This document shows positions 11,968 through 33,665 of a stretch of DNA of 64,000 nt, one piece after another. The notes beneath the pieces were generated by a model. That model searched no databases. It was given only the letters and a program-made list of their open reading frames with translations, and had not been told where the DNA came from. The translations under genes were made by a program, and so were the position numbers. Numbering within the stretch: position 1 is the stretch's first letter; each line of letters starts with the position of its first letter. The stretch is from Paenibacillus dendritiformis (lineage in GTDB: Bacteria; Bacillota; Bacilli; Paenibacillales; Paenibacillaceae), in the NCBI RefSeq assembly GCF_945605565.1, contig NZ_OX216966.1:6006001-6070000 (forward strand). The letters run 5' to 3'.

Positions 11968-12375
11968 TTAATCTTTGGGTGGTGTATACCAATCCCCAAA
12001 TTCAATAATAAATTGCTTGTCATTTGTTGAAGCATATTTGACAGTAACTGCACCAAGCTTATCTCCTTTTGAGTTTTTAGGAATATCCTTTATATATCCT
12101 TTCTTGATAAGTGTATCCATATCAATAGGCTTCGCTTCTGTACTAATCTCTATAGTAGGATTATCCAATAAGTATCTCTGTACCGCATCGGTTATTATTC
12201 TCGCCGATGCCGCATCCGAAGTCTCCTTCGCCTTATCAAACTGCCCTACAATAACCACCGCCGCGATCGCAATGATAATCCCCAGGATGACGATAACCGC
12301 CAGCAGCTCGATGAGCGTCATCCCCTTCTCGTTCCGTGCAGCCTTCAGCCGTTCCTGTGCCCATGCCATACTCAT
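11968..12375 (-). CDS. Type IV pilin-like protein, probable major pilin (ComGC/PilA-like)
   Basis: A 135-residue protein with a textbook class III prepilin leader and helix: KGMTLIELLAVIVILGIIIA at about residues 17-36, with cleavage after Gly18 and Glu at mature position 5. The C-terminal part is a small lysine-rich domain (about 75 residues). Its compact size and location directly after the motor and platform genes suggest the major pilin. The start at 12375 is chosen from AAAGGGGA about ten bases upstream. Codon use is more AT-rich than in neighbouring pil genes, possibly reflecting high expression or diversification. PilD is the expected processing enzyme. Confidence 0.9.
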   Translation of the reverse strand: MSMAWAQERLKAARNEKGMTLIELLAVIVILGIIIAIAAVVIVGQFDKAKETSDAASARIITDAVQRYLLDNPTIEISTEAKPIDMDTLIKKGYIKDIPKNSKGDKLGAVTVKYASTNDKQFIIEFGDWYTPPKD

Positions 12376-12412
12376 GATTTTCGTTTCCCCTTTCATGAAT
12401 ACAATGATTTAT

Positions 12413-12430
12413 GTTTTACTTCCGTAAAAC
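12413..12430. promoter_or_regulatory. Hairpin between pilC and the pilin gene
   Basis: GTTTTAC-TTCC-GTAAAAC is a perfect 7-bp stem in the 92-bp gap before the pilin gene. There is no strong T-run, so it may serve as a processing or stabilising element that lets the pilin be expressed differently from the platform gene. Confidence 0.4.
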
Positions 12431-12467
12431 CATTACCTAGGGCGGAGCTCCGGTCCGGATGACCGAA

Positions 12468-13679
12468 TCAGCGCAAATTGTCCATCAGCTTGAAGGACGG
12501 GAGCATGACGGCCAAGACGATGAAGCCGACGATGACCGCCAAAACCACAATCATAAGCGGCTCCAGCATCGACTTCAGACGATCCGACATCGTCTCCACA
12601 TCCCGCTCGTAGAAGTCGGCCACCTTTTCCATCATCTCGTCCAGATTCCCGGTCCGTTCGCCGACTCCCATCATCTGCACCAGCATCGGCGGGAACCAGG
12701 CATGCTCCTCGAATGTATCCGACAGCGCCCGGCCGCTCTTGACGTCTTCCCGCGCGGCACGGATGATGCGCCCGTACACCTCGTTGCCGGTGATACGCGC
12801 GGCGATCGTCAGCGTATCGACGATCGGAATGGCCGCGCTGAAGAGGGAAGCGAACGTGCGGGTGAAGCGCGCCAGCGCCTGCTTCTGCTGCAGCTTCCCC
12901 AGGATCGGGAAGCGCAGCTTCGCCTTGTCCCTTGGATATTGCAGGCGCGGCAGCTTCAGCAACAGCATGCACCCGAACGGAAGCAGGACAAGCCCCGGAA
13001 TGACGAGATAGCTGTACTGGACCATGAAGCCGCTTACAGCCATGACGACGCGGGTCGGCAGCGGCAGTTCAATGTCCATCGAAGTGAAGCTCAGCACCAG
13101 CTTCGGAATCACGAAGATCATCAAGACGGTGACGACAACGACCGTCATGACCAGCATAATGATCGGGTAGATCATCGCGGACTTCACTTTTTCCCGCGTC
13201 TGATGCTCCTTTTCATAAAAGACCGCCAGCCGCTCCAGCATCTCGTCCAGCTTCCCCGAGGCTTCCCCGGCCTTCACCATATTGACGAACATCTGGCTGA
13301 ATACGCCGGGTGTCCGCTCCGCAGCCTGAGATAAGGATGTGCCGGATTCGAGATCATCGAGCACCTGGTGCAGCACCGCGCTGAATGACTTATTGTCGGT
13401 CTGTCCTTCCAGTACGCGAATCGATTCCGCGAGCGGAATGCCGGCACGCGCCATCGTGGCGAGCTGGCGGCAAAATACGGTCATCTCCCCGACCTTCACG
13501 CGCGGACCGCCAAACGCAATATCGCGATGCAGCCAATGGCTCCTGCGATCCTCCAGCTTCGTAACCCACCAATTCCTCGCCTGCAATTGCTCGGCCGCCT
13601 GCTTCTTCGTTGCCGCCTTCACGACACCGCGCCGGCGGGCGCCGTATTCATCCACCGCCTTGAATTGAAAGGTCGCCAA
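12468..13679 (-). CDS. pilC: PilC/GspF inner-membrane platform protein
   Basis: A 403-residue polytopic protein with two T2SSF domains (about residues 70-193 and 270-395) and about three membrane segments. Recognisable motifs are the FCRQLATMARAGIPLAESI opening of the first repeat and FTRTFASLFSAAIPIVDTL of the second. It forms the rotor/platform on which PilB and PilT act. The start is a TTG at 13679 with AGAGG eight bases upstream, and the sequence MATFQFKAVDEYG is typical for GspF. Length is the family norm. It lies 35 bp after pilT. Confidence 0.93.
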   Translation of the reverse strand: MATFQFKAVDEYGARRRGVVKAATKKQAAEQLQARNWWVTKLEDRRSHWLHRDIAFGGPRVKVGEMTVFCRQLATMARAGIPLAESIRVLEGQTDNKSFSAVLHQVLDDLESGTSLSQAAERTPGVFSQMFVNMVKAGEASGKLDEMLERLAVFYEKEHQTREKVKSAMIYPIIMLVMTVVVVTVLMIFVIPKLVLSFTSMDIELPLPTRVVMAVSGFMVQYSYLVIPGLVLLPFGCMLLLKLPRLQYPRDKAKLRFPILGKLQQKQALARFTRTFASLFSAAIPIVDTLTIAARITGNEVYGRIIRAAREDVKSGRALSDTFEEHAWFPPMLVQMMGVGERTGNLDEMMEKVADFYERDVETMSDRLKSMLEPLMIVVLAVIVGFIVLAVMLPSFKLMDNLR

Positions 13680-13714
13680 CGCAACAACCTCTTTTCCCCA
13701 TTAATTTAATCGCT

Positions 13715-14803
13715 TTAATTCAACCTGCGATGGGAAGCGCCGTTAGAGAGGGACGGCCCCTCTACCACGATATCGGAATGCGCCTGAACTTGATCATAAT
13801 CAATAAGCCCGTTCATGGCCGCATCGGCAAATGCCTGAGCGAAGGTAACCATCCCTTCCGCCCGGCTGGTCAGCATAATTCCCGGCAATTGATACGTTCG
13901 GCCCGCGCGGATCGAATGCGCCACAGAAGGAATATTGACCAGTACTTCAAATATGCCGACCATTCCCTTCTCGAAGCGCCTTCGCACGAGACGCTGCGCC
14001 ACGACGCCGACCAGAACCGACGCCAGTTGCGTGCGTATATGCTGCTGCATCTCGCCCGGGAAGCTGTCAATCAGCCGGTCGATCGATAGCGCCGCATTGG
14101 AGGTATGCAAGGTTCCGAGCACGAGATGTCCTGTCTCCGCGGCGGTGAGCGCCGTCGAGATCGTGTCATTGTCCCTCATCTCGCCGATGACGATCACATC
14201 GGGGTCTTGCCGCAGCGCGGCGCGCAAGCCGTCGAAGAAGGTCGGCGTATCGATTCCGATCTCCCGCTGATGCACCAATGCCTTCTCAGAGGGATGCAGC
14301 TTCTCCACCGGGTCCTCCAGCGTCACGATATGAATCGGCTTCGTCCGGTTCAGCTCATCCACGAACGCGCCCAGCGTCGTGGACTTCCCGCTTCCCGTCG
14401 GCCCGACGACCAGAATCAGCCCTTGCTTCTGATGAATAAGCTGCCGCGTCACCTCAGGCAGCCCCAGCGAAGCAATGGAGGCCGGCTTGCCAATGATAAT
14501 TCTGGCCGCCAGACAGGGAGCGCCCCGCATCCGGTACACATGAAGGCGCACGCGCACAGACTCGCTATGCTGTACGGCCGCGTCCACATCCCCGCGGGCG
14601 ACGAACTGCTCCCATTGCGGCAGCGACAACAGGTCCTCGCACAGCTCCATAATCTCCGAAGCCGTAAGCTCGCGGCTCATCATAGGCTGCAATTCGCCGA
14701 GCACCCGCATCATCGGCGGCATCCCGGACGACAGATGTACGTCCGACGCCTCCATACTCACGGCCAGAGCTACCCATCTCGACCAATCCTCTACCGCACT
14801 CAT
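13715..14803 (-). CDS. pilT: PilT twitching/retraction ATPase
   Basis: A 362-residue hexameric secretion ATPase. Walker A GPTGSGKSTT is at about residues 135-144, with an Asp box (TLEDPVE), a Walker B region (DPDVIVIGEMRD) and a His box (TGHLVLGTLHT). The N-terminal SDVHLSSGMPP motif is characteristic of PilT rather than PilB. PilT depolymerises pili and powers twitching or DNA uptake. The start overlaps the pilB stop by four bases (ATGA). Its presence implies that this pilus can retract, unlike a pure type II-like pseudopilus. Confidence 0.94.
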   Translation of the reverse strand: MSAVEDWSRWVALAVSMEASDVHLSSGMPPMMRVLGELQPMMSRELTASEIMELCEDLLSLPQWEQFVARGDVDAAVQHSESVRVRLHVYRMRGAPCLAARIIIGKPASIASLGLPEVTRQLIHQKQGLILVVGPTGSGKSTTLGAFVDELNRTKPIHIVTLEDPVEKLHPSEKALVHQREIGIDTPTFFDGLRAALRQDPDVIVIGEMRDNDTISTALTAAETGHLVLGTLHTSNAALSIDRLIDSFPGEMQQHIRTQLASVLVGVVAQRLVRRRFEKGMVGIFEVLVNIPSVAHSIRAGRTYQLPGIMLTSRAEGMVTFAQAFADAAMNGLIDYDQVQAHSDIVVEGPSLSNGASHRRLN

Positions 14804-16500
14804 TGGACAAGCGCACTCCTTTCCTGCAGTTCCTCCTCTTCCGGAGTCGCGACGCGGATCACCTCGCTGATCGTCGTCAAGCCTTCCGCCGCCTTGCGCA
14901 GTCCGTCTTCGAACAGCGAAGCGAAGTTCTGAGCGGCAGCCGCCGCCCGGTATTCGCTATCCGGGCGCTTGTTCATCGTCAGCAGCCGCAGCTCGTCATC
15001 CATCTTCAGCACCTCGTGGATGGCCAGCCTTCCCCGGTAGCCGGTCCGCCCGCAGGCTTCACACCCCGTCCCGCGGCGCAATCCGTCCAGCGGCAGCCGG
15101 TAGCGCTCCAGCCACATGCGCTCCTCCAGGGTCGGCTCGCAAGGCTGTGCGCATTGCGTACACACCCTCCGAACCAGGCGCTGACCGGCGACACAGAGCA
15201 AGGAAGAGGAGACGAGATACGGCTCCACCCCCATATCCATCAGGCGCGTCATCGTATTGACCGCGCTGTTCGTATGCAGGGTGCTCAGCACGAGGTGGCC
15301 GGTCATCGCTGCCCGAACGGCAATCTCTGCCGTCTCCAGATCGCGTATTTCCCCGACCATAATAATATTCGGGTCCTGACGCAGCATCGCTCGCAGCCCG
15401 CGGGCAAAGGTCATGCCGATCGCCGCGTTCACCTGGACCTGATTGATGCCCGGCAGCTGGTATTCCACCGGATCTTCAATCGTCATGATATTGATACCCT
15501 GATGATAGAGCTGGGAAAGCGCGGCATATAGGGTCGTAGACTTGCCGCTTCCGGTCGGTCCGGTCAACAGGATGATCCCGTAAGTCGATTGGATCGCCCG
15601 CTGGAATTGGGCCAGATTATGCGGAGTAAATCCAAGCTGATCCAGCCCGCTGATCCCATGATGCTGATTCAGCAGCCGCATGACGACCTTTTCGCCATGA
15701 ATCGTCGGCAGTGTGGAGACCCGGACATCCCATTGCTCATGAGCATGCAGCCATTCGAAGCGGCCGTCCTGGGGCAGACGGCGCTCAGTCAGATTCAGAT
15801 TGGCCAAAATTTTGATTCGTGCCACAATCACATTCTGCATATGCTTCGGGAGCGTTCGTTCCGTGCGCAGCACCCCGTCTACCCGGTAGCGAATCGCCAG
15901 CTCCTCGCCCTGGGGATCGAGATGAATATCGCTCGCCCGCACCGTCACCGCCTGCGTTATCAACTGATTGACGGTCCTGACGACGGGAGATTGTTCATCT
16001 TCCAGCTGCGCCGACAGCGTCTCTTCCTCATACTGCTGGAGATGCTGCAGCATTTCGTCCACGGATTCCTGCATGCCGTAATAGCGGCGTATCATGCGGC
16101 CAAGCTCTTCGCGGGTGGCAATCACCGGCTCAATCCGATAGCCCGTGGCAAGCCGCAATTCTTCGAGCGCATAGTAATCCAACGGATCTTCCATCGCTAC
16201 GATGAGCTTTGAATCCTCGATGCGCAGGGGAAGCACCCGGTACTGCTCGGCAAGCCGCTGCGAGATTAGATCGATGATCTCCTGCTCGATATGATGCCGG
16301 TACAGTTGAACATGCGGGATCCCCAGCTGGTAATCCAGCACCTCGATCAATTGCTCTTCCGTAATGAGGCCTTCGGACAGCAGGACATCGCCAAGCCGCC
16401 CTTTATGCTTCGCCTGAACCGCCAACGCATGCTGCAATTGCGCCGGGGTGATGAGACCGACCTCGACCATCAATTCTCCGATTCGCTTGCGCTGCTTCAT
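14800..16500 (-). CDS. pilB: PilB/GspE extension ATPase
   Basis: A 566-residue ATPase that drives pilus polymerisation. An N-terminal MshEN/T2SSE-N domain (about residues 5-150, GELMVEVGLITPAQLQHAL) precedes the ATPase core. The core has Walker A GPTGSGKSTTLY at about 320, the Asp box IEDPVEY, Walker B QDPNIIMVGEIRD, and a zinc-binding tetracysteine (CTQC ... CEAC) near 455-490. The ATG at 16500 follows GGGGTGA; an upstream in-frame start would add 20 residues without a ribosome binding site. It is the first gene of the minus-strand pilus operon. Confidence 0.94.
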   Translation of the reverse strand: MKQRKRIGELMVEVGLITPAQLQHALAVQAKHKGRLGDVLLSEGLITEEQLIEVLDYQLGIPHVQLYRHHIEQEIIDLISQRLAEQYRVLPLRIEDSKLIVAMEDPLDYYALEELRLATGYRIEPVIATREELGRMIRRYYGMQESVDEMLQHLQQYEEETLSAQLEDEQSPVVRTVNQLITQAVTVRASDIHLDPQGEELAIRYRVDGVLRTERTLPKHMQNVIVARIKILANLNLTERRLPQDGRFEWLHAHEQWDVRVSTLPTIHGEKVVMRLLNQHHGISGLDQLGFTPHNLAQFQRAIQSTYGIILLTGPTGSGKSTTLYAALSQLYHQGINIMTIEDPVEYQLPGINQVQVNAAIGMTFARGLRAMLRQDPNIIMVGEIRDLETAEIAVRAAMTGHLVLSTLHTNSAVNTMTRLMDMGVEPYLVSSSLLCVAGQRLVRRVCTQCAQPCEPTLEERMWLERYRLPLDGLRRGTGCEACGRTGYRGRLAIHEVLKMDDELRLLTMNKRPDSEYRAAAAAQNFASLFEDGLRKAAEGLTTISEVIRVATPEEEELQERSALVQ

Positions 16501-16622
16501 GAGTTCACCCCATCTCGAATCGCGACGGCAATCCCGTCCCGTAGGTATGTACAAGTGCATGAAAACCGCGATGGAAACAACATTTTTTAAAAATCCCGCT
16601 CTTTAAAAAAGAACGCAAGATT

Positions 16623-16993: not shown

Positions 16994-17911
16994 TCATCCC
17001 GCAACCAGCTTCCCTAATGCCAACAGTACCGCGCCATAGGCCGCATCCTTCCCGGCGGCCATGCATTGCATCCCGGGGTACCGCTCTGCCAACAAAGCGG
17101 TAAACCCGTTCCGGACCTCGCTGTTTTTCAGCAGCACGCTGCCGGCCATCGCCACCGTTCCCGCTTGCAGACCCAGCTTCTCCACGACCGGAACGACGAG
17201 CTCGCAGAGGGAGCGGGCGCATTTGTCCGCAATGGAGAGAGCGCTCTTGTCCCCAAGCGCGCAGGCCTGCGACAAAATCGGGGCCAGAGCCGCGATATCC
17301 TTTTTGTTCGTGTGCCGATCATACACGAAGCGGATAAGCTGTTGAATCGATTCCATCTGCAGGTGCTGATATACCATCCCTGTGATGGGCGTTGCGGGGA
17401 GGCGGCCGTCATGTGCGCGCACGACCGCCGACAGCAGCTCGCGGCCAATGCTGTAGCCGCTGCCTTCATCATCGATCAGATGACCGTAACCGCCCGCGCG
17501 ATGCGACTGGCCCGCTTCATTTTGGCCATAGCAGATCGATCCCGTGCCCGCGATGAGAATGACGCCGACGGCCTTGCCGTGCGCACCCCACAGCGCCGTT
17601 GCTTGATCGCCCGTAATGGTCAAGCCGCCTTCATACCCGCATTCACGAACGTTCGCTTCCAGGCGGGGGATGACCGTCGGATTGCTGACTCCCGCCGCGC
17701 CGATACATACCTGCACGCAGTGCTCCAGCCCTCCGCATACCTCGGCAATCGTCGCGAAAATATCCCGCAGACTGCTTCGCACGCTCGCCTCGTCCTGTCC
17801 GTTGTAGTTGATTGCCCCGGACGTGAACGTGTGCACTACCGTCCCTTTCACATCCGCAACGGTGACGGCCGTCTTCGTGCCGCCGCCGTCCACCCCTGCC
17901 ACATAGTTCAA
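16994..17911 (-). CDS. murK: BadF/BadG-type amino-sugar kinase (GlcNAc/MurNAc kinase, MurK-like)
   Basis: A 305-residue ASKHA-fold kinase. Phosphate-binding motifs are GVDGGGTKTAV at residues 6-16 and LIAGTGSICYG at about 121-131, with the BadF-family segment GYGHLIDDEGSGYSIG at about 142-157. Family members phosphorylate GlcNAc or MurNAc at O6. Since MurQ in the same operon needs MurNAc-6-phosphate and no PTS is present, MurNAc (or both sugars) is the expected substrate; this is inference. The start is a TTG preceded by AAGGATGTGA. It is the last gene of the cluster, followed by a terminator. The gene symbol is functional shorthand and not proven orthology. Confidence 0.8.
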   Translation of the reverse strand: MNYVAGVDGGGTKTAVTVADVKGTVVHTFTSGAINYNGQDEASVRSSLRDIFATIAEVCGGLEHCVQVCIGAAGVSNPTVIPRLEANVRECGYEGGLTITGDQATALWGAHGKAVGVILIAGTGSICYGQNEAGQSHRAGGYGHLIDDEGSGYSIGRELLSAVVRAHDGRLPATPITGMVYQHLQMESIQQLIRFVYDRHTNKKDIAALAPILSQACALGDKSALSIADKCARSLCELVVPVVEKLGLQAGTVAMAGSVLLKNSEVRNGFTALLAERYPGMQCMAAGKDAAYGAVLLALGKLVAG

Positions 17912-17992
17912 CGTAAGCTCACATCCTTCTTCTGCCTTAGGATCCGCGCAGGCGCACGAACGGTGCGCATTCCGGAAAGCAGCTGTTCCGCC

Positions 17993-19135
17993 CTATGGGT
18001 ACAAATGATAGTGCCGCTTCATGCCGGCAAATTCCCGGCTTTCTTCCCGGAACCGTTCCAGCATCGCCGGAACGTCCACCGGCTCCGCGCGGTAGATGCT
18101 GTCCCCGCCTAACAGATCAATGAACGGCCGCGAATTCTCCTTCACCGGGGGCAAAAAGGAAAACTGCTCATAATTGCGCTTGATCGCATACAGCAGTTGA
18201 AACCCCGCTTCCAACGGCTGCAGCGCGCGGCGATCGAGCACATGCAGCTGCACCCCGCCGCATTGCTCATCCCGGAACTTCGAGAACGAAGGCTTGAAAT
18301 AGACCGGACGGAAGACGACTCCCGGCAGCTTCATCCGGTTCATCTCCTCAGCCAGCTTCTCCGCTTCAATGAACGGCGCGCCGATGATCTCGAACGGAGC
18401 CGTCGTGCCGCGGCCTTCCGAAATGTTGGTCCCTTCGAACAGGCAAGTGCCTGCATACAGCAATGCCGAATCGAACCGCGGAAGCCCCAGGGACGGCATA
18501 ACCCACGGAAGCCCGGCATCAGGGAACTGCATCGTCCGATCCCAGCCTTCGCAGCGCACGACATGCAGCCGGCCGTTCCACTTCATCTGCTCGTTCGCCA
18601 TCGCCGCCACCTCGCCTGCCGTCAGGCCGTAGCGGACGCAGAGCGGATAATTCCCGACGAAGGAGTGATAGCCCGGCTTCAATAGATTCCCTTCCACCGT
18701 GACGCCGTCGAGCGGATTGATCCGATCCAGCACGACGAACGCCTTGCCTGCCTTCGCGCAATCCTCCAGGGCGTACAGCATCGTGTAAATGAACGTATAA
18801 TACCGAACCCCGACATCCTGAATATCGTACACGACCATATCGACTTCATCCAGCATCTCCCGGCTCAAGCGCTTGGAGTCTTTGCGGTACAAGCTGTACA
18901 CCGGCACCTGCGTATACGGGTCCACATACGTCTCCACCTGGGCCCCCGCCGCCTGATCGCCGCGCACGCCGTGCTCCGGCGAGAACAGCGCGACCAGGTT
19001 GAATTTCTCGTGCAGAACTTGAATCGTCGAGACGAAGTCCTTCGTTAAGCCGGTCGGCGCCGTAATCAACCCGATACGCTTTCCTTGGAACAGATGCGCA
19101 TACTCCTCGATACAATCAATCCCGTTGCGGATCAT
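17993..19135 (-). CDS. namZ: NamZ-family (DUF1343, YbbC-like) exo-N-acetylmuramidase
   Basis: A 380-residue DUF1343 protein. Bacillus NamZ releases MurNAc from the non-reducing end of peptidoglycan glycans. Diagnostic segments are GKRIGLITAPTGL, LFSPEHGVRGDQAAG (containing Glu54 in SPEHG, the position proposed as catalytic in the family), VYDIQDVGVRYYTFIYT and LDRINPLDG. Unlike secreted YbbC, it begins MIRNGIDCIEEY and has no signal peptide, so it should act in the cytoplasm on an imported saccharide. GAGGAGG five bases upstream supports the start. It lies between the PIG-L deacetylase and the kinase. Confidence 0.88.
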   Translation of the reverse strand: MIRNGIDCIEEYAHLFQGKRIGLITAPTGLTKDFVSTIQVLHEKFNLVALFSPEHGVRGDQAAGAQVETYVDPYTQVPVYSLYRKDSKRLSREMLDEVDMVVYDIQDVGVRYYTFIYTMLYALEDCAKAGKAFVVLDRINPLDGVTVEGNLLKPGYHSFVGNYPLCVRYGLTAGEVAAMANEQMKWNGRLHVVRCEGWDRTMQFPDAGLPWVMPSLGLPRFDSALLYAGTCLFEGTNISEGRGTTAPFEIIGAPFIEAEKLAEEMNRMKLPGVVFRPVYFKPSFSKFRDEQCGGVQLHVLDRRALQPLEAGFQLLYAIKRNYEQFSFLPPVKENSRPFIDLLGGDSIYRAEPVDVPAMLERFREESREFAGMKRHYHLYP

Positions 19136-19164
19136 AGCAGCCTCCTCTTCATGCGCATCCGCCC

Positions 19165-19869
19165 CTACAATTCGGACTGGCGCAGGCGCATGCTTTCTTC
19201 CGGAATCATGAACGTTTCTGCGTATTCCTTCCTTGCCTCAATGCCGCGCACCCGGGCGAGATGCTTATAGTACTCCAGATAAGGGAACGAGGTGCTGCCC
19301 GTCACGAACCAATGCAGCGACACCGCCTTCACCCACAAATCATAAGCCTCTTGCGAAAAGTCAACGTAGACGTAAGGCTTGTAGTCCACCGCGTCCTCCC
19401 AGTTCTCCGCATAATAGAGCTTGGAAGCGAAGAAGGCGGGCAGCTCCCGCTGGAACGACGGCAAGCCGGCGAAGAAGCGCGCGTCATTGACAATGCGGTG
19501 CGTCGTCATATGATCCTTGTGCATGCTGTTCTTGAAATGCGTAATGATAATATTCGGGCGCACCTGGCGGATGACATCGCACACCTTGAGGCGATTCTCT
19601 TCATTGTCCTGCAGCTCGCCGTCCGGCGTATCGAACACGATAGCCTCGCCGCCCAGCATCTCGGCGAACGCCTTCGCCTCATTCACCTTCTGCTCGCGGT
19701 ACTCCGCCATATCTCTGCCTGCCGGGACCCCGCGCTCCCCTGCGGTCAACGCCAGGGTGACGATCCGATCCCCCTTCAGCGAATGGCTTGCCAATACGCC
19801 GCCCGCGGTCAGCTCCATATCCCCCACATGACCGCCAATGGCCAGAATCGTTATCTTTTGCTCGCTCAT
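19165..19869 (-). CDS. PIG-L (LmbE-like) family deacetylase
   Basis: A 234-residue protein of the zinc-dependent PIG-L/LmbE fold, whose members N-deacetylate GlcNAc-containing molecules. The family's AHPDD motif appears as GGHVGDMEL at residues 12-20 (His14, Asp17 kept), and the second metal motif is HKDHMTTH near 118-125. Length is normal. The start overlaps the stop of the GNAT gene by one base (TAATG), showing tight coupling. In this cluster a de-N-acetylase for an amino sugar or muropeptide fragment is likely; the precise substrate is unknown. The first Asp of the usual DD pair is altered to Gly, as in a subset of the family. Confidence 0.85.
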   Translation of the reverse strand: MSEQKITILAIGGHVGDMELTAGGVLASHSLKGDRIVTLALTAGERGVPAGRDMAEYREQKVNEAKAFAEMLGGEAIVFDTPDGELQDNEENRLKVCDVIRQVRPNIIITHFKNSMHKDHMTTHRIVNDARFFAGLPSFQRELPAFFASKLYYAENWEDAVDYKPYVYVDFSQEAYDLWVKAVSLHWFVTGSTSFPYLEYYKHLARVRGIEARKEYAETFMIPEESMRLRQSEL

Positions 19870-20840
19870 TAGACAAGCTCCTTTCTCATGACAGCGAAAG
19901 ATTTGACCGTGCGAAAGCCAGCCTTCTCATAAATGCGAATCGCCGGATTCGTGCTTCCGGTATAGAGCGACATATACTCGGTTCCGATACTTCGGAACGC
20001 CTCGCACAGCTTGAAGAACAACACCGTTCCCAAGCCATGCCCCTCATGCCCGGGATGAACGCCGATGCCCGCGAAGTAGCCGCGTCCGTTCTCCTGGCGA
20101 ATGACCGGACCGGCGAAGCCGGCGGCCTTCCCTTCATACGCGGCAATTACGAACGGCACTCCGTCCGCAGCCGCCTGGGCAATCTCCCGCTCCCAGAGCG
20201 GATTGTTCAATCCCCGCAGCATCTCCTCCACGCCGCTATGCTTATCCGGGTCGAACAGTTCGACCGCATAGCCTTCGAAGGCGGCCCGCGCCTCTTTGGC
20301 CCTGATCTCTTCGGGGATGGCGAACCCGGCCAGCGGCATATACATGGCGCATTCGATTGCGCGCTCGATATAGCCTTGCCGCAGCAAAAATTGATGATAC
20401 GCGCTGCCGACCGGGACGCCCGGCGCATTATTATGCTCATGCTTCGGCGTATCCGGGATGTACCAGGGCAGCATCATCGGATTGAAGAACAGGACGTCCG
20501 CCTGCTTTTTTCCCAATGCTTGAAAGCGTTCCTCCACCGCCTCCAGCATCACCTTATAGTTCTCATCGCTGCTGTGATCATGGGACAGCACGATGCAGGT
20601 AATATAGCCGGCGACCTCCCCGAGTGGCAGATCCTGTCCGGTGCAGCCGCACGCGAAGCCGATTACCCGGCCCGCCTCCAGCAGCACAAACGTATTTTCC
20701 GGGTCGAAATACGCATTCGATAAAAAGATAGCTTCAAAGCTTGCCTCCGTCAGCTCCTTGTACCCGTCTCTCACGGCTTCTTCATTCCATAGCGCAATCA
20801 CATCGCCGCTATACTTCCGATCCCAGGTTGCGAGCATCAT
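19869..20840 (-). CDS. Double GNAT-domain acetyltransferase
   Basis: A 323-residue protein with two GNAT-like halves. The first (about residues 1-140) is degenerate. The second (about 165-320) has the acetyl-CoA loop GVHPGHEGHGLGTVLFF and the C-terminal NPAIRIYEKAGFRTVKS end. The start at 20840 is chosen because GGGAGG lies about nine bases upstream; a GTG at 20849 would abut the site. It is translationally coupled to the PIG-L gene. An acetyltransferase next to a deacetylase and a muramidase suggests adjustment of N-acetylation of imported amino sugars, but this is inference. Confidence 0.8.
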   Translation of the reverse strand: MMLATWDRKYSGDVIALWNEEAVRDGYKELTEASFEAIFLSNAYFDPENTFVLLEAGRVIGFACGCTGQDLPLGEVAGYITCIVLSHDHSSDENYKVMLEAVEERFQALGKKQADVLFFNPMMLPWYIPDTPKHEHNNAPGVPVGSAYHQFLLRQGYIERAIECAMYMPLAGFAIPEEIRAKEARAAFEGYAVELFDPDKHSGVEEMLRGLNNPLWEREIAQAAADGVPFVIAAYEGKAAGFAGPVIRQENGRGYFAGIGVHPGHEGHGLGTVLFFKLCEAFRSIGTEYMSLYTGSTNPAIRIYEKAGFRTVKSFAVMRKELV

Positions 20841-20855
20841 GAGCAGCACCTCCCA

Positions 20856-21716
20856 TTAACCTTTGACCGCGCCTACCGTGACCCCCTTCAGGAAATACTT
20901 CTGCAAGCTGAAGAAGAGAATGAACATCGGCAGCGCAGAGATCGTAGCGCCCGCCATCATCGGCGCAAAGTATGTCGTGTTGGCGAAGCGGAAGTTTTTA
21001 AGGCCTACCTGAATCGTCTGCATATCCATCGTATTCGTGACGAGGAACGGCCAGAAGAAGGTGTTCCAGCTATCCATGAAGGTGAGAATCGCCATGACGG
21101 CCAACACCGTTTTCGACAGCGGCAGTATGATCTTGAAATAGACCTGAAGCTGATTGCAGCCTTCAATCTTCGCGCATTCCAGCACCTCGGTCGGAATGCT
21201 GCTCATGAACTGCTTCGCAAGGAAAATATTATATACGGTAACGAGACCAGGCATGATTAAGGCACTGTACGTATTCTGGATTTGGAAAATGTTGACGATC
21301 AAAATGTACAATGGCACTTGCGATACCTGATACGGAATCATCATCGCTATTAACAGCAGGGTGAACAGCGCCGTTCTGCCCTTGAATTTGATTTTGGAGA
21401 AGGCGTATCCGGCCATGCTCGCAAAAAACACGTTCGACACCGTCACGACACTTGCCACAAACAAGGAATTTAACAGCCAGCGAAAGGAATGCTCGCTATA
21501 TTCGAAAAAGAACTTGTATGATTCCAGAGTGAACTTGGTCGGAAAGAGCGAGTAGCTCATCGCACCGGCTTCCACAGGATCCCCGAAGGAAGAAATAATC
21601 ATAAAATAGATAGGGAAGATCGTGGCCAAAGCAAAAAGCAAAAGTACGGTAATGATGACAGCATTTCTAATATATTTGACTGCCACATTTCCATTATGTG
21701 AATGATAGAGTGACAT
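20856..21716 (-). CDS. Sugar ABC transporter permease (MalG-like)
   Basis: A 286-residue inner-membrane permease of the carbohydrate CUT1 class with six membrane segments. The EAA loop is recognisable in the last third (EVLECAKIEGCNQLQVYFKI), and the C-terminus FLKGVTVGAVKG is typical of MalG-type subunits. It pairs with the MalF-like subunit 21 bp upstream in the operon. No ATP-binding gene is nearby, so a shared MsmX-type ATPase is expected. Codon use is more AT-rich than in flanking enzyme genes. Confidence 0.92.
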   Translation of the reverse strand: MSLYHSHNGNVAVKYIRNAVIITVLLLFALATIFPIYFMIISSFGDPVEAGAMSYSLFPTKFTLESYKFFFEYSEHSFRWLLNSLFVASVVTVSNVFFASMAGYAFSKIKFKGRTALFTLLLIAMMIPYQVSQVPLYILIVNIFQIQNTYSALIMPGLVTVYNIFLAKQFMSSIPTEVLECAKIEGCNQLQVYFKIILPLSKTVLAVMAILTFMDSWNTFFWPFLVTNTMDMQTIQVGLKNFRFANTTYFAPMMAGATISALPMFILFFSLQKYFLKGVTVGAVKG

Positions 21717-21737
21717 TATCGGCTTCTCCCCTTCCCC

Positions 21738-22640
21738 TTAATATTCCACGTCTTTGCCCATAAATTTAAATTGAATGAACGAAATGATCGCAATAATGGC
21801 GGCCAGCACCAAAGATTGGGCTGCAGCCTTCCCGAATTCAAAGTACTTAAATGCGTTGTTGAAAATAAGCAACCCAACCATTGTCGTTGAATTGTCCGGG
21901 CCGCCGCCCGTCATCAGATAAGCGTTCTGGAACACTTGAAAGGAACCGATAACACCGGTTACGAGCAAAAACAACGTTGTTGGCTTCAAAAAAGGAATTA
22001 CGATATACCATAGCTTCTTCAAAAAGGATGCCCCATCCAATTCCGCTGCCTCATAATAACTGTCATCAATGCCGAGCAGGGCCGCCAAGTAAATAATAAT
22101 GGCCGTGCCATGGCTTGCCAGCCAGGACATCAGGACGAGAGAGAACATCGACGTCGAGCTTGAGCCGAGCCAGTTCAAATTGCTGATGCCGAACAGGCCA
22201 AGCAGCTGGTTCAAAATTCCCGCTTCCATCGGATCGAAGATCCACAGCCATACGACAGACATCGCCACCCCGGACGCGACGGCCGGCAAATAATATACCG
22301 CCTTGAACGTCGTCTGCAGCTTCTTATTCAGCGGCAAAATAAGAATGGCCACGACAAAGGAGATAATCAAGGCCACGGGAACCGTCAACACCGTATAGAC
22401 GGCCGTATTGACGATCGATTTCCAAAACAGCGGATCCTTGAAGGAATTAATATAATTGTCAAAACCGATAAACGTAGAGCCTAGCGGCTTATAATCCTGG
22501 AAGCTGATAATAAAGGCGCTGACAACCGGATAGGCCGTAAATACGGCGAATACAACCAGGGCAACGGCGATAAACGCATATCCCCAGCCTGAATCTCCTC
22601 TAATTTTCCGTCTCTTCAACGGCTTCGTTAATTGGGCCAT
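21738..22640 (-). CDS. Sugar ABC transporter permease (MalF-like)
   Basis: A 300-residue permease with six membrane segments, a proline-rich first helix (FAVFTAYPVVSAFIISFQDY) and an EAA loop in EAAELDGASFLKKLWYIVIP at about residues 202-221. It is the MalF/UgpA-type partner of the following gene and receives substrate from the lipoprotein encoded upstream. Between that lipoprotein gene and this one lies a strong 13-bp stem-loop without T-run. The transported sugar is inferred to be a MurNAc-containing saccharide from context only. Confidence 0.92.
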   Translation of the reverse strand: MAQLTKPLKRRKIRGDSGWGYAFIAVALVVFAVFTAYPVVSAFIISFQDYKPLGSTFIGFDNYINSFKDPLFWKSIVNTAVYTVLTVPVALIISFVVAILILPLNKKLQTTFKAVYYLPAVASGVAMSVVWLWIFDPMEAGILNQLLGLFGISNLNWLGSSSTSMFSLVLMSWLASHGTAIIIYLAALLGIDDSYYEAAELDGASFLKKLWYIVIPFLKPTTLFLLVTGVIGSFQVFQNAYLMTGGGPDNSTTMVGLLIFNNAFKYFEFGKAAAQSLVLAAIIAIISFIQFKFMGKDVEY

Positions 22641-22681
22641 AATGTGAAACCCCTTTCAATACGCAGTGATGCAATGATTTC

Positions 22682-22715
22682 CGGATAGCCGCATACAGTT
22701 CCATGCGGCTATCCG
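22682..22715 (-). promoter_or_regulatory. Intercistronic stem-loop between binding-protein and permease genes
   Basis: A perfect 13-bp inverted repeat (CGGATAGCCGCAT and ATGCGGCTATCCG) around an 8-base loop, with no T-run. Such hairpins commonly protect the 3' end of the abundant binding-protein mRNA segment. Confidence 0.6.
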
Positions 22716-22729
22716 AAAGTCTGCTCTGT

Positions 22730-24160
22730 CTAGTCTTTGACAACTCCGTCTTCGCCGAATGCGGCGACGGCTGCCGATTTCACCGCATCATACATTTGCT
22801 CTGGCGAAATCTCGTTGGCGATCAAGGCTTGAAGCTTCGGAATAATCACTTCGTCCTCGAGCTTAATCGCCTTGGCGCCCAGATCCGTCGGAATATCCGG
22901 ACGTGCCGGCGTTGCTTGCTTGAGCAATGTTTCTACAGCCTCTTTATTGAACTCGTTTCTTTCAATTGGCATGCTTTCCGCCGCTTTTCTGCCGGACTCG
23001 GTAATATGGGCGGCGAAGAGATCATTGTTCGTCGTGGCCGCAACCTTGCCGCTGGCCAAGAAGTAAGCTGCTTTGACGACATTGGCCTTATGCTCAGGCG
23101 TCGGCTCCTGCTTGCCGCGGAAGGTTACATAACCGTCAACCGCGACGCTTGCCTGCTGCTTCTCGCCCAAGAAGGTAGGAACCGGCAATACGATATAATC
23201 GACCGGGATGCTTCCTTTGACTTCACTGCCGTCTTTTTTCTCGATCTTTTCGTTATTTTGGTTCGCGTTATTTTCGAAAGTGGCCAGGCCTTTGCCTGTA
23301 ATCATCGTTTGACCTGTCAGGAACATATTCCAGCGTTTCCCTGCATCGACCGAGCTGAGCTCCTTCGGCATGGAACCGTCATCAATGAGCACGCGAATCG
23401 CTTTCAGCACTTCCAGGAAGTTTTTGCTCGTATACGCATATTTCAGATCTTTGTCGAACGCGGCCGGCATGCCCGCATTTTTGAGCAGAATAGCCAAGTA
23501 GTCCTTGGACGCTACGCCCGCCGTCGCAAATACGAAGCCGTAACGGGACGTTTTGTCGCCATCCTTCACGACGCCTTTTTTGACATCTTCACGGAATTGC
23601 TCGAACGTCCAGCCTTCCTTCTGCACCTTCTTCCAATCGATGCCCGCTTGCTCCAGGAACTCTCGGTTGCCCCCAAGCGCGTGGACCTCCATATACGCCG
23701 GGAAGCCGTATAATCCGTCACCGCTCTTCATATATTCCAATGGAATTTCATCGTAATCCGCAATCATTTCTGGCGTGGCAATATCGCTAATATCCATCAG
23801 CATGCCTTGCTGAATATATTTCGGAATTCCGGCCGAACCGATGAACGCAATATCCGGCGGGCTGCCCGCGTTCACTTGCGTATCCAGCTTCTGCGTCATG
23901 TCTTCCCAGCTTGCCGGCTCGATCTTCAACGTCAGGTCCGGATACAATTCATTGAATTCCTTCTCCATTTGCTTGAAATTATCTTGGAAATTGCCAGACA
24001 CTGGCGGGAGCAATGCGGTTATCGTATCTTTTGCACTGTTCCCTCCGTTAGCGCCCGCATCTGGCGATTTCGCATCATTATTCGAGCTTCCGCATGCCGT
24101 TAAAGAGGACAAAGCCAAGGTTAATGCCAAAATGGATGCCAATACACGCAATTTCCTCAT
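22730..24160 (-). CDS. Extracellular sugar-binding lipoprotein (ABC transporter)
   Basis: A 476-residue family 1 solute-binding protein. A lipoprotein signal peptide ends in LSSLTAC (Cys22), followed by a Ser/Asn/Gly-rich linker and a two-lobed binding fold (LTLKIEPASWEDMTQKL, PPDIAFIGSAGIPKY). The lipid anchor would hold it on the outer face of the membrane, delivering ligand to the two permeases encoded downstream. It starts 31 bp after murQ, so it is cotranscribed with it. The ligand is presumably a peptidoglycan-derived saccharide; that is contextual inference. Confidence 0.9.
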   Translation of the reverse strand: MRKLRVLASILALTLALSSLTACGSSNNDAKSPDAGANGGNSAKDTITALLPPVSGNFQDNFKQMEKEFNELYPDLTLKIEPASWEDMTQKLDTQVNAGSPPDIAFIGSAGIPKYIQQGMLMDISDIATPEMIADYDEIPLEYMKSGDGLYGFPAYMEVHALGGNREFLEQAGIDWKKVQKEGWTFEQFREDVKKGVVKDGDKTSRYGFVFATAGVASKDYLAILLKNAGMPAAFDKDLKYAYTSKNFLEVLKAIRVLIDDGSMPKELSSVDAGKRWNMFLTGQTMITGKGLATFENNANQNNEKIEKKDGSEVKGSIPVDYIVLPVPTFLGEKQQASVAVDGYVTFRGKQEPTPEHKANVVKAAYFLASGKVAATTNNDLFAAHITESGRKAAESMPIERNEFNKEAVETLLKQATPARPDIPTDLGAKAIKLEDEVIIPKLQALIANEISPEQMYDAVKSAAVAAFGEDGVVKD

Positions 24161-24191
24161 TGATATAAGCCCCCTCAGGTTATCGAATGAA

Positions 24192-25106
24192 TTACACCAC
24201 TTTTGTAAACATGCCGATCGCTTTCTTCAAGCTGCCCTCGCATTGTTCCAGCGCTTGCTCTGCCGCGGCCGCATCCAGACCGGTCTTAATCATCATGATG
24301 GCCAGCTTGCAGTTCATGGAAGCGCTTTCTAAATACGTGGCAGCGGTACCCGCATCAACGCCTGTAGCTGCCTGTATTATCCGTACGGACCGATCTCGCA
24401 GCTTGATATTGCTCGCCTTCAAATCGACCATTAAGTTGTTATACGTCTTGCCCAGCTTTACCATCGTACAAGTAGTAAGCATGTTCAGAACCAGCTTCTG
24501 TGCTGTACCCGCTTTCAATCGGGTCGATCCCATAATGACTTCCGGTCCTACAACAGGTGAAATGCAGATATCGCAGACGCTCTCCAGCAAGGATTGCTTG
24601 TTATTGACGACGCCGATGGTCGTCGCCCCGATCTCCCGCGCCTTCTTCAAGGCTGCGATGACAAATCGAGCGCTTCCGCTCGCCGTAATCCCGACAACCG
24701 CATCCTTGTCTGTCACGCCGCAACTCTCGATTAATGCAACCCCCTCCTCCGCATTGTCTTCATAGCCTTCTACGGCCCATCGCAGCGCAGTGTCTCCCCC
24801 GGCAATATGTCCTTGCACCAGCTCAGGGTCGGTTCCGAACGTGGGCGGACATTCCGAAGCGTCGAGGACGCCCATTCTTCCTGAAGATCCAGCACCGACG
24901 TAAAACATCCTTCCACCATGTTTGAGCACTTGATGAAGTGAATTAACCGCTTTCACAATTTGCGGAATTTCAGCCGCAACCGCTTGCGGAACGCTCGCAT
25001 CCTGCTCGTTCATGAGGCGGAGCATTTGCTCGGTCGTGCATTCATCAATGGCCGCTGTCTCAGGATTGATTGCTTCCGTCGTTAGACCCGCTAGATACTC
25101 ATCCAT
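24192..25106 (-). CDS. murQ: N-acetylmuramic acid 6-phosphate etherase
   Basis: A 304-residue SIS-domain enzyme that cleaves the lactyl ether of MurNAc-6-phosphate to give GlcNAc-6-phosphate and D-lactate in the cytoplasm. Diagnostic motifs are the opening TTEAINPETAAID, MFYVGAGSSGRMGVLDASE (sugar-phosphate site with the general acid/base Glu of SECPPTFG) and AGTAQKLVLNMLTT. Length matches the family. The ATG at 25106 is chosen because AGGAGG lies six bases upstream; the ATG at 25112 abuts the site. It is the first gene of the operon, downstream of a candidate promoter and operator. Confidence 0.96.
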   Translation of the reverse strand: MDEYLAGLTTEAINPETAAIDECTTEQMLRLMNEQDASVPQAVAAEIPQIVKAVNSLHQVLKHGGRMFYVGAGSSGRMGVLDASECPPTFGTDPELVQGHIAGGDTALRWAVEGYEDNAEEGVALIESCGVTDKDAVVGITASGSARFVIAALKKAREIGATTIGVVNNKQSLLESVCDICISPVVGPEVIMGSTRLKAGTAQKLVLNMLTTCTMVKLGKTYNNLMVDLKASNIKLRDRSVRIIQAATGVDAGTAATYLESASMNCKLAIMMIKTGLDAAAAEQALEQCEGSLKKAIGMFTKVV

Positions 25107-25148
25107 AGCCATCCTCCTATCCTGTTTGTGTAACTTGCTTATACTGCA

Positions 25149-25177
25149 ATCTTAGCCGCAAAGACCATTACGGTCAA
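25149..25177 (-). promoter_or_regulatory. Promoter of the murQ operon
   Basis: On the minus strand TTGACC (25172-25177) is spaced 17 bp from TAAGAT (25149-25154), about 40 bp before the murQ start. Confidence 0.55.
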
Positions 25178-25187
25178 CAGTTTTTGA

Positions 25188-25201
25188 AATAAAATTTTAT
25201 T
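25188..25201. promoter_or_regulatory. Palindrome AATAAAATTTTATT, candidate RpiR operator
   Basis: A perfect 14-bp palindrome just upstream of the murQ -35 box. Related TAAAATAAAATTT sequences occur twice upstream of rpiR (26176-26190 and 26206-26223), which suggests a shared operator for the RpiR-type regulator. Confidence 0.5.
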
Positions 25202-25242
25202 ATAAAATAAATTGTTGTTGTTTTATTTTCTCCATTTCAACA

Positions 25243-25271
25243 AAAAAAGACATCGGACGCGAGCCGATGTC
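25243..25271 (-). terminator. Terminator of the rpiR gene
   Basis: GACATCGG (25249-25256) pairs with CCGATGTC (25264-25271) around a 7-base loop, followed on the minus strand by seven T. It separates rpiR transcription from the murQ operon. Confidence 0.85.
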
Positions 25272-25294
25272 TGACCGTCAAGCCGCTCCCAGCA

Positions 25295-26155
25295 TTAGCG
25301 ATGCTTGCTTGCCAGTATATTGTGCGTCTTCGTCAAATATTTCTTCACATGCTTGTATTCCGCGCTGGCCACGCCGGCGAACAAAATATCGATCACCGTC
25401 AGCATGGCAATCCGCGATCCCATGGCGCCGCTGCGGATCGTGATCTCGGGCGTGGAAATGCTCAGCACGATATGGGCGTTTTCCGCCAACGGGCTTTTCG
25501 TATACTTCGTAATCGCGATGATGCAGGCGCCGTTCTTTTTGGCGATGTCCAGCGCATCGAGAATATCGGCCGTATTGCCGGAATTCGAGATAAAGATCGC
25601 CACGTCGTTTTTCTCCAGTAGCGTCGCCGCGGTAAGCTGGCTATGGCCGTCGGTGTATGCATGGCAAATCTTATTAATGCGCGAAAATTTCTGCTCCGCA
25701 TCGATCCCGACCAGACCGGAAGCGCCGATGCCAAAAAACACGATCCGCCGGCTTTCCCGCAGCACCTTCACCGCGCGCTCGACTTCTTTTCTATCAATCA
25801 CACAAAGCGTATCCTCGATAGACTTGCTATTATTGCGAGAAATATTCGAGATAATCGTATTCAGATCATCTCCAGGCTGAATATCCGTATACTGATCTTT
25901 TTGCTCATCCTCCATCGAACCAAGCGAAGCGGAAATACTGACAATAAAGCTGCGGTATCCGGTATAGCCCATCGTCTTGCAAAAACGGAGAACGGATGCG
26001 TCACTCGTCTTCGTCAACTGAGCCAGACTCTTGATGGAGAGATGCGGAATCTCCTCCAAATTGTTCAGCACATACTCTGCGACTGTCCTTTCTACCGGCG
26101 TCAGGCTGTCCTTCATGTCACGAATCTTAATTAAAATATTGTCGTGGATTGACAT
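25295..26155 (-). CDS. murR: RpiR-family regulator (MurR-like)
   Basis: A 286-residue regulator with an N-terminal RpiR helix-turn-helix (about residues 15-75; LSIKSLAQLTKTSDASVLRF) and a C-terminal SIS sugar-phosphate domain (about 120-250; IVFFGIGASGLVGIDAEQK and FISNSGNTADILDAL). MurR proteins sense MurNAc-6-phosphate and control murQ. Here the gene directly precedes the murQ operon on the same strand, with its own terminator. AGGGA six bases upstream favours the ATG at 26155 over a GTG at 26158. Orthology to murR is inferred from position. Confidence 0.88.
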   Translation of the reverse strand: MSIHDNILIKIRDMKDSLTPVERTVAEYVLNNLEEIPHLSIKSLAQLTKTSDASVLRFCKTMGYTGYRSFIVSISASLGSMEDEQKDQYTDIQPGDDLNTIISNISRNNSKSIEDTLCVIDRKEVERAVKVLRESRRIVFFGIGASGLVGIDAEQKFSRINKICHAYTDGHSQLTAATLLEKNDVAIFISNSGNTADILDALDIAKKNGACIIAITKYTKSPLAENAHIVLSISTPEITIRSGAMGSRIAMLTVIDILFAGVASAEYKHVKKYLTKTHNILASKHR

Positions 26156-26175
26156 CACTTTTCCCTACTCATCTT

Positions 26176-26223
26176 TGAAATTTTATTTTAAAGTTTTGCT
26201 CCAATAATAAATTTTATTTTATA
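26176..26223. promoter_or_regulatory. Two AT-rich direct copies upstream of rpiR, candidate operators
   Basis: On the minus strand TAAAATAAAATTTCA (26176-26190) and TATAAAATAAAATTTATT (26206-26223) repeat the core TAAAATAAAATTT found in the murQ operator region, consistent with autoregulation. Confidence 0.45.
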
Positions 26224-26293: not shown

Positions 26294-26687
26294 TGGCATT
26301 CTCCCATCCAGTCAGAATTGTCCTGTTCGCTCCTTAGCAGCACTCTCCCATCCGGTCAGAATCACCCTGCACGTTCCTTGTCAGCACTATCCCATCCGGT
26401 CAGAACCGCCCTGCACGCTCCTTATCAGCACTCTCCATCCGGGCAGAATGACCCTGCACGCCCCCTCTCAGCACTCTCCCATCCGGTCAGAATGACCCTG
26501 CACGCTCCTTGTCAGCACTCTCCCATCCGGTCAGAATGACCCTGTACATTCCTTGTCAGCACTCTCCCATCCGGGCAGAATGACCCTGCACGTTCCTTGT
26601 CAGCACTCTCCCATCCGGTCAGAATGACCCTGTACATTCCTAGTCAGCACTCTCCCATTCAATCAGAATATCCGCGCATCCCTCTTA
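26294..26687. repeat. Tandem array of about nine 44-bp units
   Basis: Units begin at 26294 (degenerate), 26338, 26382, 26426, 26469, 26513, 26557, 26601 and 26645 (degenerate end). The consensus opens CAGCACTCTCCCATCCGGTC and continues AGAATGACCCTGCACGCTCC. Unit 4 lacks one base. Inner units differ at only a few positions; the outer ones are more diverged. Open frames across it on the plus strand are repeat-derived and lack a ribosome binding site. Confidence 0.92.
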
Positions 26688-33528: not shown

Positions 33529-33556
33529 TCTCACAAGACAATTTCATTTTCTTGAC

Positions 33557-33665
33557 CTTATCAAGAGTGACTGAGGGAATAGGCCCTATGACGTCCGGCA
33601 ACCTTACCCATTATGGTAAAAGGTGCTAAATCCTACAGAATGCACAGCATTCTGAGAGATAAGTG
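33557..33665 (+). ncRNA. SAM-I (S-box) riboswitch
   Basis: Shows the S-box order: CTTATCAAGAG opening P1 with GAGAGATAAG closing it, GTGACTGAGGGA, GGCCCTATGA, GTCCGGCAACC, and GGTAAAAGGTGCTAAATCC. Binding of S-adenosylmethionine should stabilise P1 and allow the following terminator to form, shutting off the methionine uptake operon. Confidence 0.96.

Follow-up and report, generated by a model that had tools for sequence, protein, structure and literature searches.

A predicted Paenibacillus dendritiformis operon for salvaging peptidoglycan sugars inside the cell

Where would a Paenibacillus cell cleave the wall fragments from which it salvages N-acetylmuramic acid (MurNAc), outside the membrane or inside it? 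The question is raised by nine genes of Paenibacillus dendritiformis that lie between positions 26158 and 16994 on the minus strand of a 64,000-nucleotide stretch of DNA, termed here the window, which covers 6.006–6.070 Mb of a 6.72-Mb one-contig genome. Their order is rpiR/murR, murQ, a solute-binding protein (SBP), two permeases, an acetyltransferase of the GNAT type, a PIG-L-fold protein, NamZ and a sugar kinase. NamZ, of the exo-β-N-acetylmuramidase family, is a secreted enzyme in Bacillus subtilis. An earlier note on this DNA had proposed that NamZ of the cluster stays in the cytoplasm, which would place cleavage after import. The cluster is quite probably a MurR-type-regulated operon for the intracellular salvage of peptidoglycan sugars.

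NamZ, the kinase and the route of import

Pfam and NCBIfam bear out the nine-gene cluster of the earlier note as present, ordered, on one strand and made up of the expected families. NamZ (17993–19135, minus strand) matches PF07075 (NamZ_N) with 260 bits and PF20732 (NamZ_C) with 162 bits, both above the gathering score, and is the sole PF07075 match in the genome. MurQ, the MurNAc-6-phosphate etherase (24192–25112, minus), reaches 361 bits with TIGR00274 compared to an equivalog cut-off of 302; NagA is also encoded in the genome, and together they match the etherase pathway of E. coli-type recycling. The transporter is represented by a lipoprotein SBP of the CUT1 type (22730–24160, minus; PF01547, SBP_bac_1), which has a hydrophobic N-terminus and an LSSLTAC lipobox by eye, and by two ATP-binding cassette (ABC) sugar permeases with PF00528 (BPD_transp_1), at 21738–22640 and 20856–21716 (both minus). 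The models nearest to the permeases are UgpA/GlcT and GlcU/UgpE, respectively, all below cut-off. None of the MsmX-like ATPases of the genome (8 matches at E ≤ 1e-60, the best with 56% identity) lies in the operon, and the ATPase of the transporter is probably a shared one.

The location of NamZ was judged with a hydrophobicity heuristic, in which an uncharged 10-residue stretch near the N-terminus is scored against a threshold of 2.0. For comparison, 60 genomes were searched, including that of the window, and 34 contain NamZ; the other 33 NamZ loci were taken as stretches of 9.8–20 kb, some of them clipped by contig ends. In the window, the NamZ frame offers no ATG, GTG or TTG ahead of the start used, its N-terminus does not look hydrophobic by eye, and in near-identical relatives the conserved core starts at about residue 20. 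Only 2 of the 33 NamZ proteins of relatives reach the threshold compared to 25 of 27 SBPs; these two (L060 and L064) both have long alternative starts, and L102 was scored as a 1094-residue frame. Presumed cytoplasmic controls exceed the threshold in 2/29 cases for MurK, 4/33 for MurQ, 4/15 for the GNAT type designated GNAT2, and 0/16, 0/20 and 0/8 for PIG-L, AnmK and NagZ. Secretion as in the Bacillus-type NamZ is thus seen in the window protein neither by the heuristic nor by eye, and the proposal of a NamZ without a signal peptide stands.

A genome scan for named NamZ loci covered the best 80 of at least 594 candidates. Here, all eight Paenibacillus NamZ (two of which are the L037 and L051 records) score below 1.5, while 17 of 17 scored loci from Bacillaceae- or Planococcaceae-type genera (an eighteenth, L077, was left out) score at least 2.1 and have a hydrophobic N-terminus. 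In this sample of 80, therefore, the predicted signal split follows lineage.

The kinase (16994–17911, minus) is a BadF-type, MurK-like sugar kinase of the BcrAD_BadFG family. Its residues 1–299 match 8zo3, a solved MurNAc/GlcNAc kinase (GlcNAc, N-acetylglucosamine) that we take to be MurK of Clostridium acetobutylicum, with E 2.3e-51, and this is its closest solved relative. Another solved protein, the "putative novel MurNAc kinase" 8ow9, presumably from Tannerella forsythia, is only distantly related (E 2.4e-4). In place of the GGWGH loop of 8zo3, the kinase contains GGYGH, with no bulky acidic residue. PMC10465942 places loop S133–L135 of T. forsythia MurK in the sugar site, and GGYGH may be the counterpart of this lactyl-accommodating loop. 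The loop sequence is consistent with binding of MurNAc, but is not proof of it.

The earlier note had also held that the kinase replaces phosphorylation by a phosphotransferase system (PTS). The assignment to a MurNAc/GlcNAc-type kinase holds, but the replacement is true of the operon only, because the genome keeps a separate murQ-murR-PTS cluster. At 5.667 Mb, a second MurQ is encoded next to a regulator of the MurR type and a PTS EIIBC protein. Among NCBIfam models, that of the MurNAc PTS transporter fits this EIIBC protein best, but its 338 bits stay short of the cut-off of 516; Bacillus sp. SKDU12 (L080) has at its murP position a protein that likewise falls under this cut-off, with 320 bits. 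The predicted ABC-kinase route thus coexists with a PTS route in the same genome. Given this second cluster, the substrate of the ABC route is probably a disaccharide containing MurNAc, and the simplest division of labour would assign MurNAc to the PTS and the disaccharide or a larger piece to the ABC transporter.

From the observed gene content, order, families, conservation and co-occurrence, and the absence of a visible NamZ signal, we infer the imported substrate and the following reactions. Secreted hydrolases would release MurNAc-GlcNAc or short glycan pieces, and the lipoprotein and CUT1 permeases would import the intact disaccharide, powered by the shared MsmX-type ATPase encoded elsewhere. 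The GlmA-like GNAT may re-acetylate the glucosamine that wall deacetylases leave behind and thereby give hydrolases the 2-acetamido group they require. In the cytoplasm, NamZ would then split off MurNAc, the BadF kinase would make MurNAc-6-phosphate and probably GlcNAc-6-phosphate too, and MurQ would remove D-lactate to give GlcNAc-6-phosphate for NagA and NagB. Proteins of the NagZ and AnmK types, which some relatives encode near the cluster and this genome encodes at other places, could extend the route to GlcNAc-MurNAc and anhydro-MurNAc. In this genome, a GH3 protein exceeds the β-N-acetylhexosaminidase (NagZ) model cut-off (217 compared to 207 bits) with no obvious signal by eye, and AnmK adjoins a PF00144 hydrolase. 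The PIG-L protein may act with the GNAT on a further sugar modification.

Conservation of the cluster and its GNAT and PIG-L genes

The NamZ stretches of the 33 relatives, scored with both window-type and relative-type queries, contain the kinase in every case, MurQ in 32, and RpiR and each of the permeases in 31. AnmK is found in 20, PIG-L in 16, GNAT2 in 15, an MsmX-like ATPase in 9 and NagZ in 8, with the identities of AnmK, NagZ and the ATPase based on Pfam searches of two, one and one representatives, respectively. Conservation of the neighbourhood, which the earlier note had made a test of its reading, is therefore found, and because relatives share both the set of genes and their order, the arrangement is more than chance. 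By identity to the window protein, the NamZ sequences fall into clade A (64–96%, L032–L048) and clade B (43–50%, L049–L064).

Across the order, 296 genomes include 68 with GNAT2, 92 with PIG-L and 163 with NamZ. Of the 68 GNAT2 genes, 63 are no more than 12 kb away from a clade-A NamZ, and so are 62 of the 64 close PIG-L genes, in each case on the strand of that NamZ; conversely, clade-A NamZ is accompanied on the same strand by GNAT2 in 63 of 71 cases and by PIG-L in 63 of 71. More distant PIG-L genes (41–50% identity) have NamZ nearby in at least 15 of 32 cases, a lower bound since the count drew on 79 distant NamZ matches, not on all of them; one PIG-L fragment place in G305 was left out of the count. 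ABC transporter, MurQ, MurK, GNAT, PIG-L and NamZ also occur together in a spirochaete metagenome-assembled genome (MAG; L091). GNAT, PIG-L and NamZ are grouped both in this locus (recorded as a Spirochaetales MAG) and in L124 (recorded as a Bacillota MAG), and MAG loci are possibly misbinned. Frames are split for the SBP in L038 and for MurQ in L046 and L054, and the GNAT and PIG-L matches of G308 contain an internal stop; these are assembly errors or decaying copies.

The GNAT gene (19869–20849, minus) encodes a tandem GNAT, of which Pfam detects the C-terminal domain. The "double GNAT" of the earlier note can thus be kept and refined to GlmA-like: the leading solved matches of its predicted structure are GlmA entries (the 5kf1 family) and 4zm6, which places GlmA among the nearest solved folds of the tandem protein. 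Identification as GlmA from sequence alone failed, and the likeness rests on fold and kin. Among these kin, GNAT_B, a distant relative, matches 5kf1 with E 8e-7. The window protein is accordingly predicted, from its modelled fold, to be a GlmA-like glucosamine/glucosaminide N-acetyltransferase. One GNAT of four types is present in 25 of the 33 loci, and no locus has two. In four same-genus loci, a GlmA-type GNAT takes its place; that of L054 matches 5kf1 with E 1.9e-53, and the other three match the L054 protein with 468–572 bits. Four NamZ clusters with neither GNAT2 nor GlmA have a PF13527-type GNAT close to MurQ (L058:4491–5732 by Pfam, L061–L063 by similarity).

The PIG-L-fold protein (19165–19869, minus; PF02585, 82 bits) contains HxGD in place of HxDD. 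Residues H14, D17 and H120 (His-x-x-Asp … His), which we take to be zinc ligands, are invariant in 13 aligned proteins. The Asp of HxDD, the general base of PIG-L/LmbE deacetylases, is replaced in all 40 family members read, by Gly in 39 and by Ala in one; L066 and L073 are taken as the same records as L037 and L051, so these 40 hold at least one duplicate. GGHVGD is found in the 120 nearest of 1422 PIG-L homologues, and three other PIG-L proteins read in the same genome keep HPDD or HADD. The nearest NCBIfam model, BshB1 (TIGR04001), is under cut-off (95.5 of 182.5 bits), and the best profile match in the Protein Data Bank is the hydratase GalB, narrowly ahead of the BshB/BcZBP deacetylases. 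The named homologues nearest to the PIG-L protein of the window belong to Paenibacillus thiaminolyticus, P. melissococcoides and P. dendritiformis. In public records, members of this Asp-less family are often termed "deacetylase" and once "4-oxalmesaconate hydratase", and the family may be misnamed in many genomes.

Of the earlier "PIG-L deacetylase", the fold and the zinc-ligand residues remain, but deacetylase activity is doubtful. A role as stand-in for a missing NagA is ruled out because NagA exceeds its cut-off in all 42 genomes searched for it, out of the 60, that of the window included. PIG-L and GlmA-like GNATs occur together at places remote from NamZ as well, and in the spirochaete MAG. 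In several of the stretches L153–L159 and L165–L167, GNAT_B-PIG-L pairs have a sugar ABC transporter as neighbour, and the 18 kb taken contain neither MurQ nor NamZ; L152–L167 had been chosen for a PIG-L match and L148–L151 for GNAT2. Of the genes next to such stray pairs, all five that were tested encode PF00144 hydrolases; none was seen by eye at other stray pairs.

It is proposed that PIG-L acts with the GNAT on some sugar modification. A more specific and rather doubtful suggestion is that GNAT and the HxGD PIG-L form a module restoring modified wall sugars before catabolism, in which the GNAT would N-acetylate glucosamine, and PIG-L, not being an N-deacetylase, would remove another block, such as the 6-O-acetyl group of MurNAc, or serve as a partner of the GNAT. 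The 6-O-acetyl group would stop phosphorylation at C6, and such a module, if real, would be the intracellular counterpart of the two modifications that confer lysozyme resistance. The Asp-less PIG-L and its link to GlmA-like GNATs are the least explained part of the operon.

Transcription, regulation and flanking features

From murQ onward, the genes are tightly packed, with an overlap of 1 base between GNAT and PIG-L and a largest gap of 89 bases, and murQ to the kinase look like one transcript. The RpiR/MurR-family regulator (25295–26158, minus) contains PF01418 (HTH_6) and PF01380 (SIS) and scores below the equivalog cut-offs of the MurR/RpiR models. It is probably transcribed separately, because a terminator-like stem, an operator-like palindrome and a σA-like promoter lie between it and murQ. 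The terminator-like hairpin (25248–25272, minus) is a 9-pair stem followed by a T-run; the RNA fold of 25240–25285 has a z of −2.29, with 6 of 200 shuffles folding equally well, and its two arms can be aligned in all 10 sequences compared, with a shorter form in L039. The candidate MurR operator upstream of murQ, the palindrome AATAAAATTTTATT (25186–25201, minus), is exact in 9 of 10 aligned sequences, with 2 mismatches in L040; 9 of the 17 clade-A loci contain it unchanged, and in L043 it has one mismatch and lies instead ahead of rpiR. The σA-like promoter (25149–25177, minus; TTGACC-17-TAAGAT) has counterparts in the alignment, with TTGACC in 9 of 10 and TAAGAT or TAATAT as the second element.

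A search of the genome with the 16-nucleotide operator finds one perfect site. An attempt to define a regulon by allowing up to 2 mismatches failed: it gives 8 matches, two of which are the murQ site on both strands, compared to 17 for a reversed control, and site counts are at chance because the control matches more often. An operator-like site with 2 mismatches lies about 210 bases upstream of a lone anmK (L185:7818–9232), which is followed by a PF00144 hydrolase. With counts at chance, MurR control common to the murQ operon and this anmK would be suggestive only.

At gathering scores, Rfam finds no RNA element inside the cluster; its sole match in the window is an S-adenosylmethionine (SAM) riboswitch at 33555–33665 (83.7 bits). 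A 44-base tandem repeat lies upstream of rpiR (26296–26669; 8.5 copies, 87% matches). On the other side, type II secretion or type IV pilus-like genes adjoin the cluster (11968–16560, minus), with pilin-like, GspF-, PilT- and GspE-like open reading frames by eye. A defence system was considered and rejected, as none of GNAT, PIG-L and NamZ, the three proteins submitted to PADLOC, gave a match.

Alternative readings and known systems

Import of an intact disaccharide followed by cleavage inside is the most economical reading, given the predicted intracellular NamZ and the conserved neighbourhood. Several observations weigh against it. The location of the window NamZ is predicted by a heuristic, and L092 and L093 combine an ABC transporter and MurK with a secreted-looking NamZ; by these predictions, signal status is not strictly tied to transporter type. 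The GNAT model differs from GlmA by a root-mean-square deviation of about 11 Å, with a TM-score of about 0.4, 5kf1/GlmA is not listed by a sequence search (E up to 0.01) or a profile search (E up to 1), and Leu295 aligns with GlmA Asp287, the residue mutated in 5kga. In addition, 8 of the 33 NamZ loci lack any of the four GNAT types, 17 lack PIG-L, and PIG-L was found near only 13 of the 79 distant NamZ used, a lower bound; therefore, neither gene is essential to the cluster. The MurNAc-type PTS cluster in the same genome means that the ABC substrate could differ, and MupG, an enzyme of another MurNAc route, is reported for Paenibacillus too in PMC6262408.

Some of these points favour an unlikely alternative, in which the ABC transporter supplements the PTS as a second way of taking up MurNAc: it would import free MurNAc, or MurNAc and GlcNAc, released by outside hydrolases, while the inner NamZ merely clears short oligosaccharides. 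The kinase matches a MurNAc/GlcNAc kinase, and the NamZ of L092 and L093 would fit such a scheme. CUT1 systems take mono- to oligosaccharides. Against this, a MurNAc-type PTS transporter is already encoded in the genome, the only NamZ is the one without a signal, and signal-less NagZ- and AnmK-type proteins accompany the clusters of some relatives.

Disaccharide import would remain compatible with a different role for PIG-L, as an ordinary N-deacetylase of GlcNAc, MurNAc or the disaccharide that uses another base, its action being reversed by the GNAT, or both remodelling N-acylation by taking an unusual N-acyl group off and putting acetyl on. This is a real possibility, though rather less than an even one: the Asp is replaced in all 40 family members read and kept by the three other PIG-L proteins read in the genome, a deacetylase sharing its substrate with the GNAT would be futile, and NagA is present anyway. 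Very improbable is the reading that the cluster serves an amino-sugar glycan other than peptidoglycan, with NamZ and MurQ homologues that have drifted in specificity. The GNAT_B-PIG-L pairs away from MurQ and NamZ speak for it; however, MurQ exceeds its equivalog cut-off, relatives have members of the AnmK and NagZ families along with the cluster, and the PF00144 family, to which all five tested neighbours of stray pairs belong, is the one at the amiE position of the Bacillus mur cluster L080.

The solved relatives of the PIG-L protein, the 4-carboxy-2-hydroxymuconate hydratase GalB (5cgz) and the BshB/BcZBP deacetylases, align with it at 21–26% identity, and none of GalB, BshB and BcZBP is known to be linked to muramic acid. 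In C. acetobutylicum, MurK, GlmA and NagZ are clustered. The operon resembles this system in its kinase, in the GlmA fold of its GNAT and in the GlmA-type GNAT of four related clusters; unlike it, the operon includes NamZ, PIG-L and an ABC transporter, and its GNAT lacks D287 of GlmA. Novelty is limited because of this GlmA/MurK precedent, of which MurK is described in PMC5790795. According to PMC10465942 and PMC5790795, MurT/MurK/MurQ of T. forsythia include a MurNAc kinase that feeds MurQ in place of a PTS, as proposed here, but with a distantly related kinase and a different transporter.

What is known of MurNAc recycling in Gram-positives comes mostly from systems with a PTS. The operon and the related clusters suggest that a cytoplasmic version independent of the PTS is common among Paenibacillales and extends to a spirochaete MAG, and the conserved GNAT-PIG-L pair makes salvage of wall sugars bearing N-deacetylation or O-acetylation testable. 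A search of the open-access literature returned no account of a cluster combining ABC transporter, NamZ and MurK, of PIG-L in connection with muramic acid or of murQ in Paenibacillus, which does not in itself show absence from print.

In Staphylococcus aureus, as presented in PMC6262408, mupG-murQPR supports import of MurNAc-GlcNAc and cleavage inside by another enzyme. Intact import, inner cleavage and then MurQ are likewise proposed for the operon; in S. aureus, however, import is by a PTS with phosphorylation and cleavage by the 6-phospho-muramidase MupG (DUF871), compared to an ABC transporter, NamZ and a separate kinase here. MurNAc recycling through MurQ in Gram-positives, and the B. subtilis cluster murQ-murR-murP-amiE-nagZ-ybbC(namZ), are described in PMC5061867. 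The same gene order is found in Bacillus sp. SKDU12 (L080). Both cluster types combine a MurR-type regulator, MurQ and NamZ, with NagZ and a PF00144 hydrolase in the wider set, while the B. subtilis type has a PTS transporter and, in L080, hydrophobic N-termini on NamZ and NagZ. The Paenibacillus operon has instead an ABC transporter, a kinase and a signal-less NamZ, plus GNAT and PIG-L, and a regulated operon that joins import by an ABC transporter with a NamZ kept inside the cell and a separate kinase would add a new form to the MurNAc recycling known from Gram-positives.

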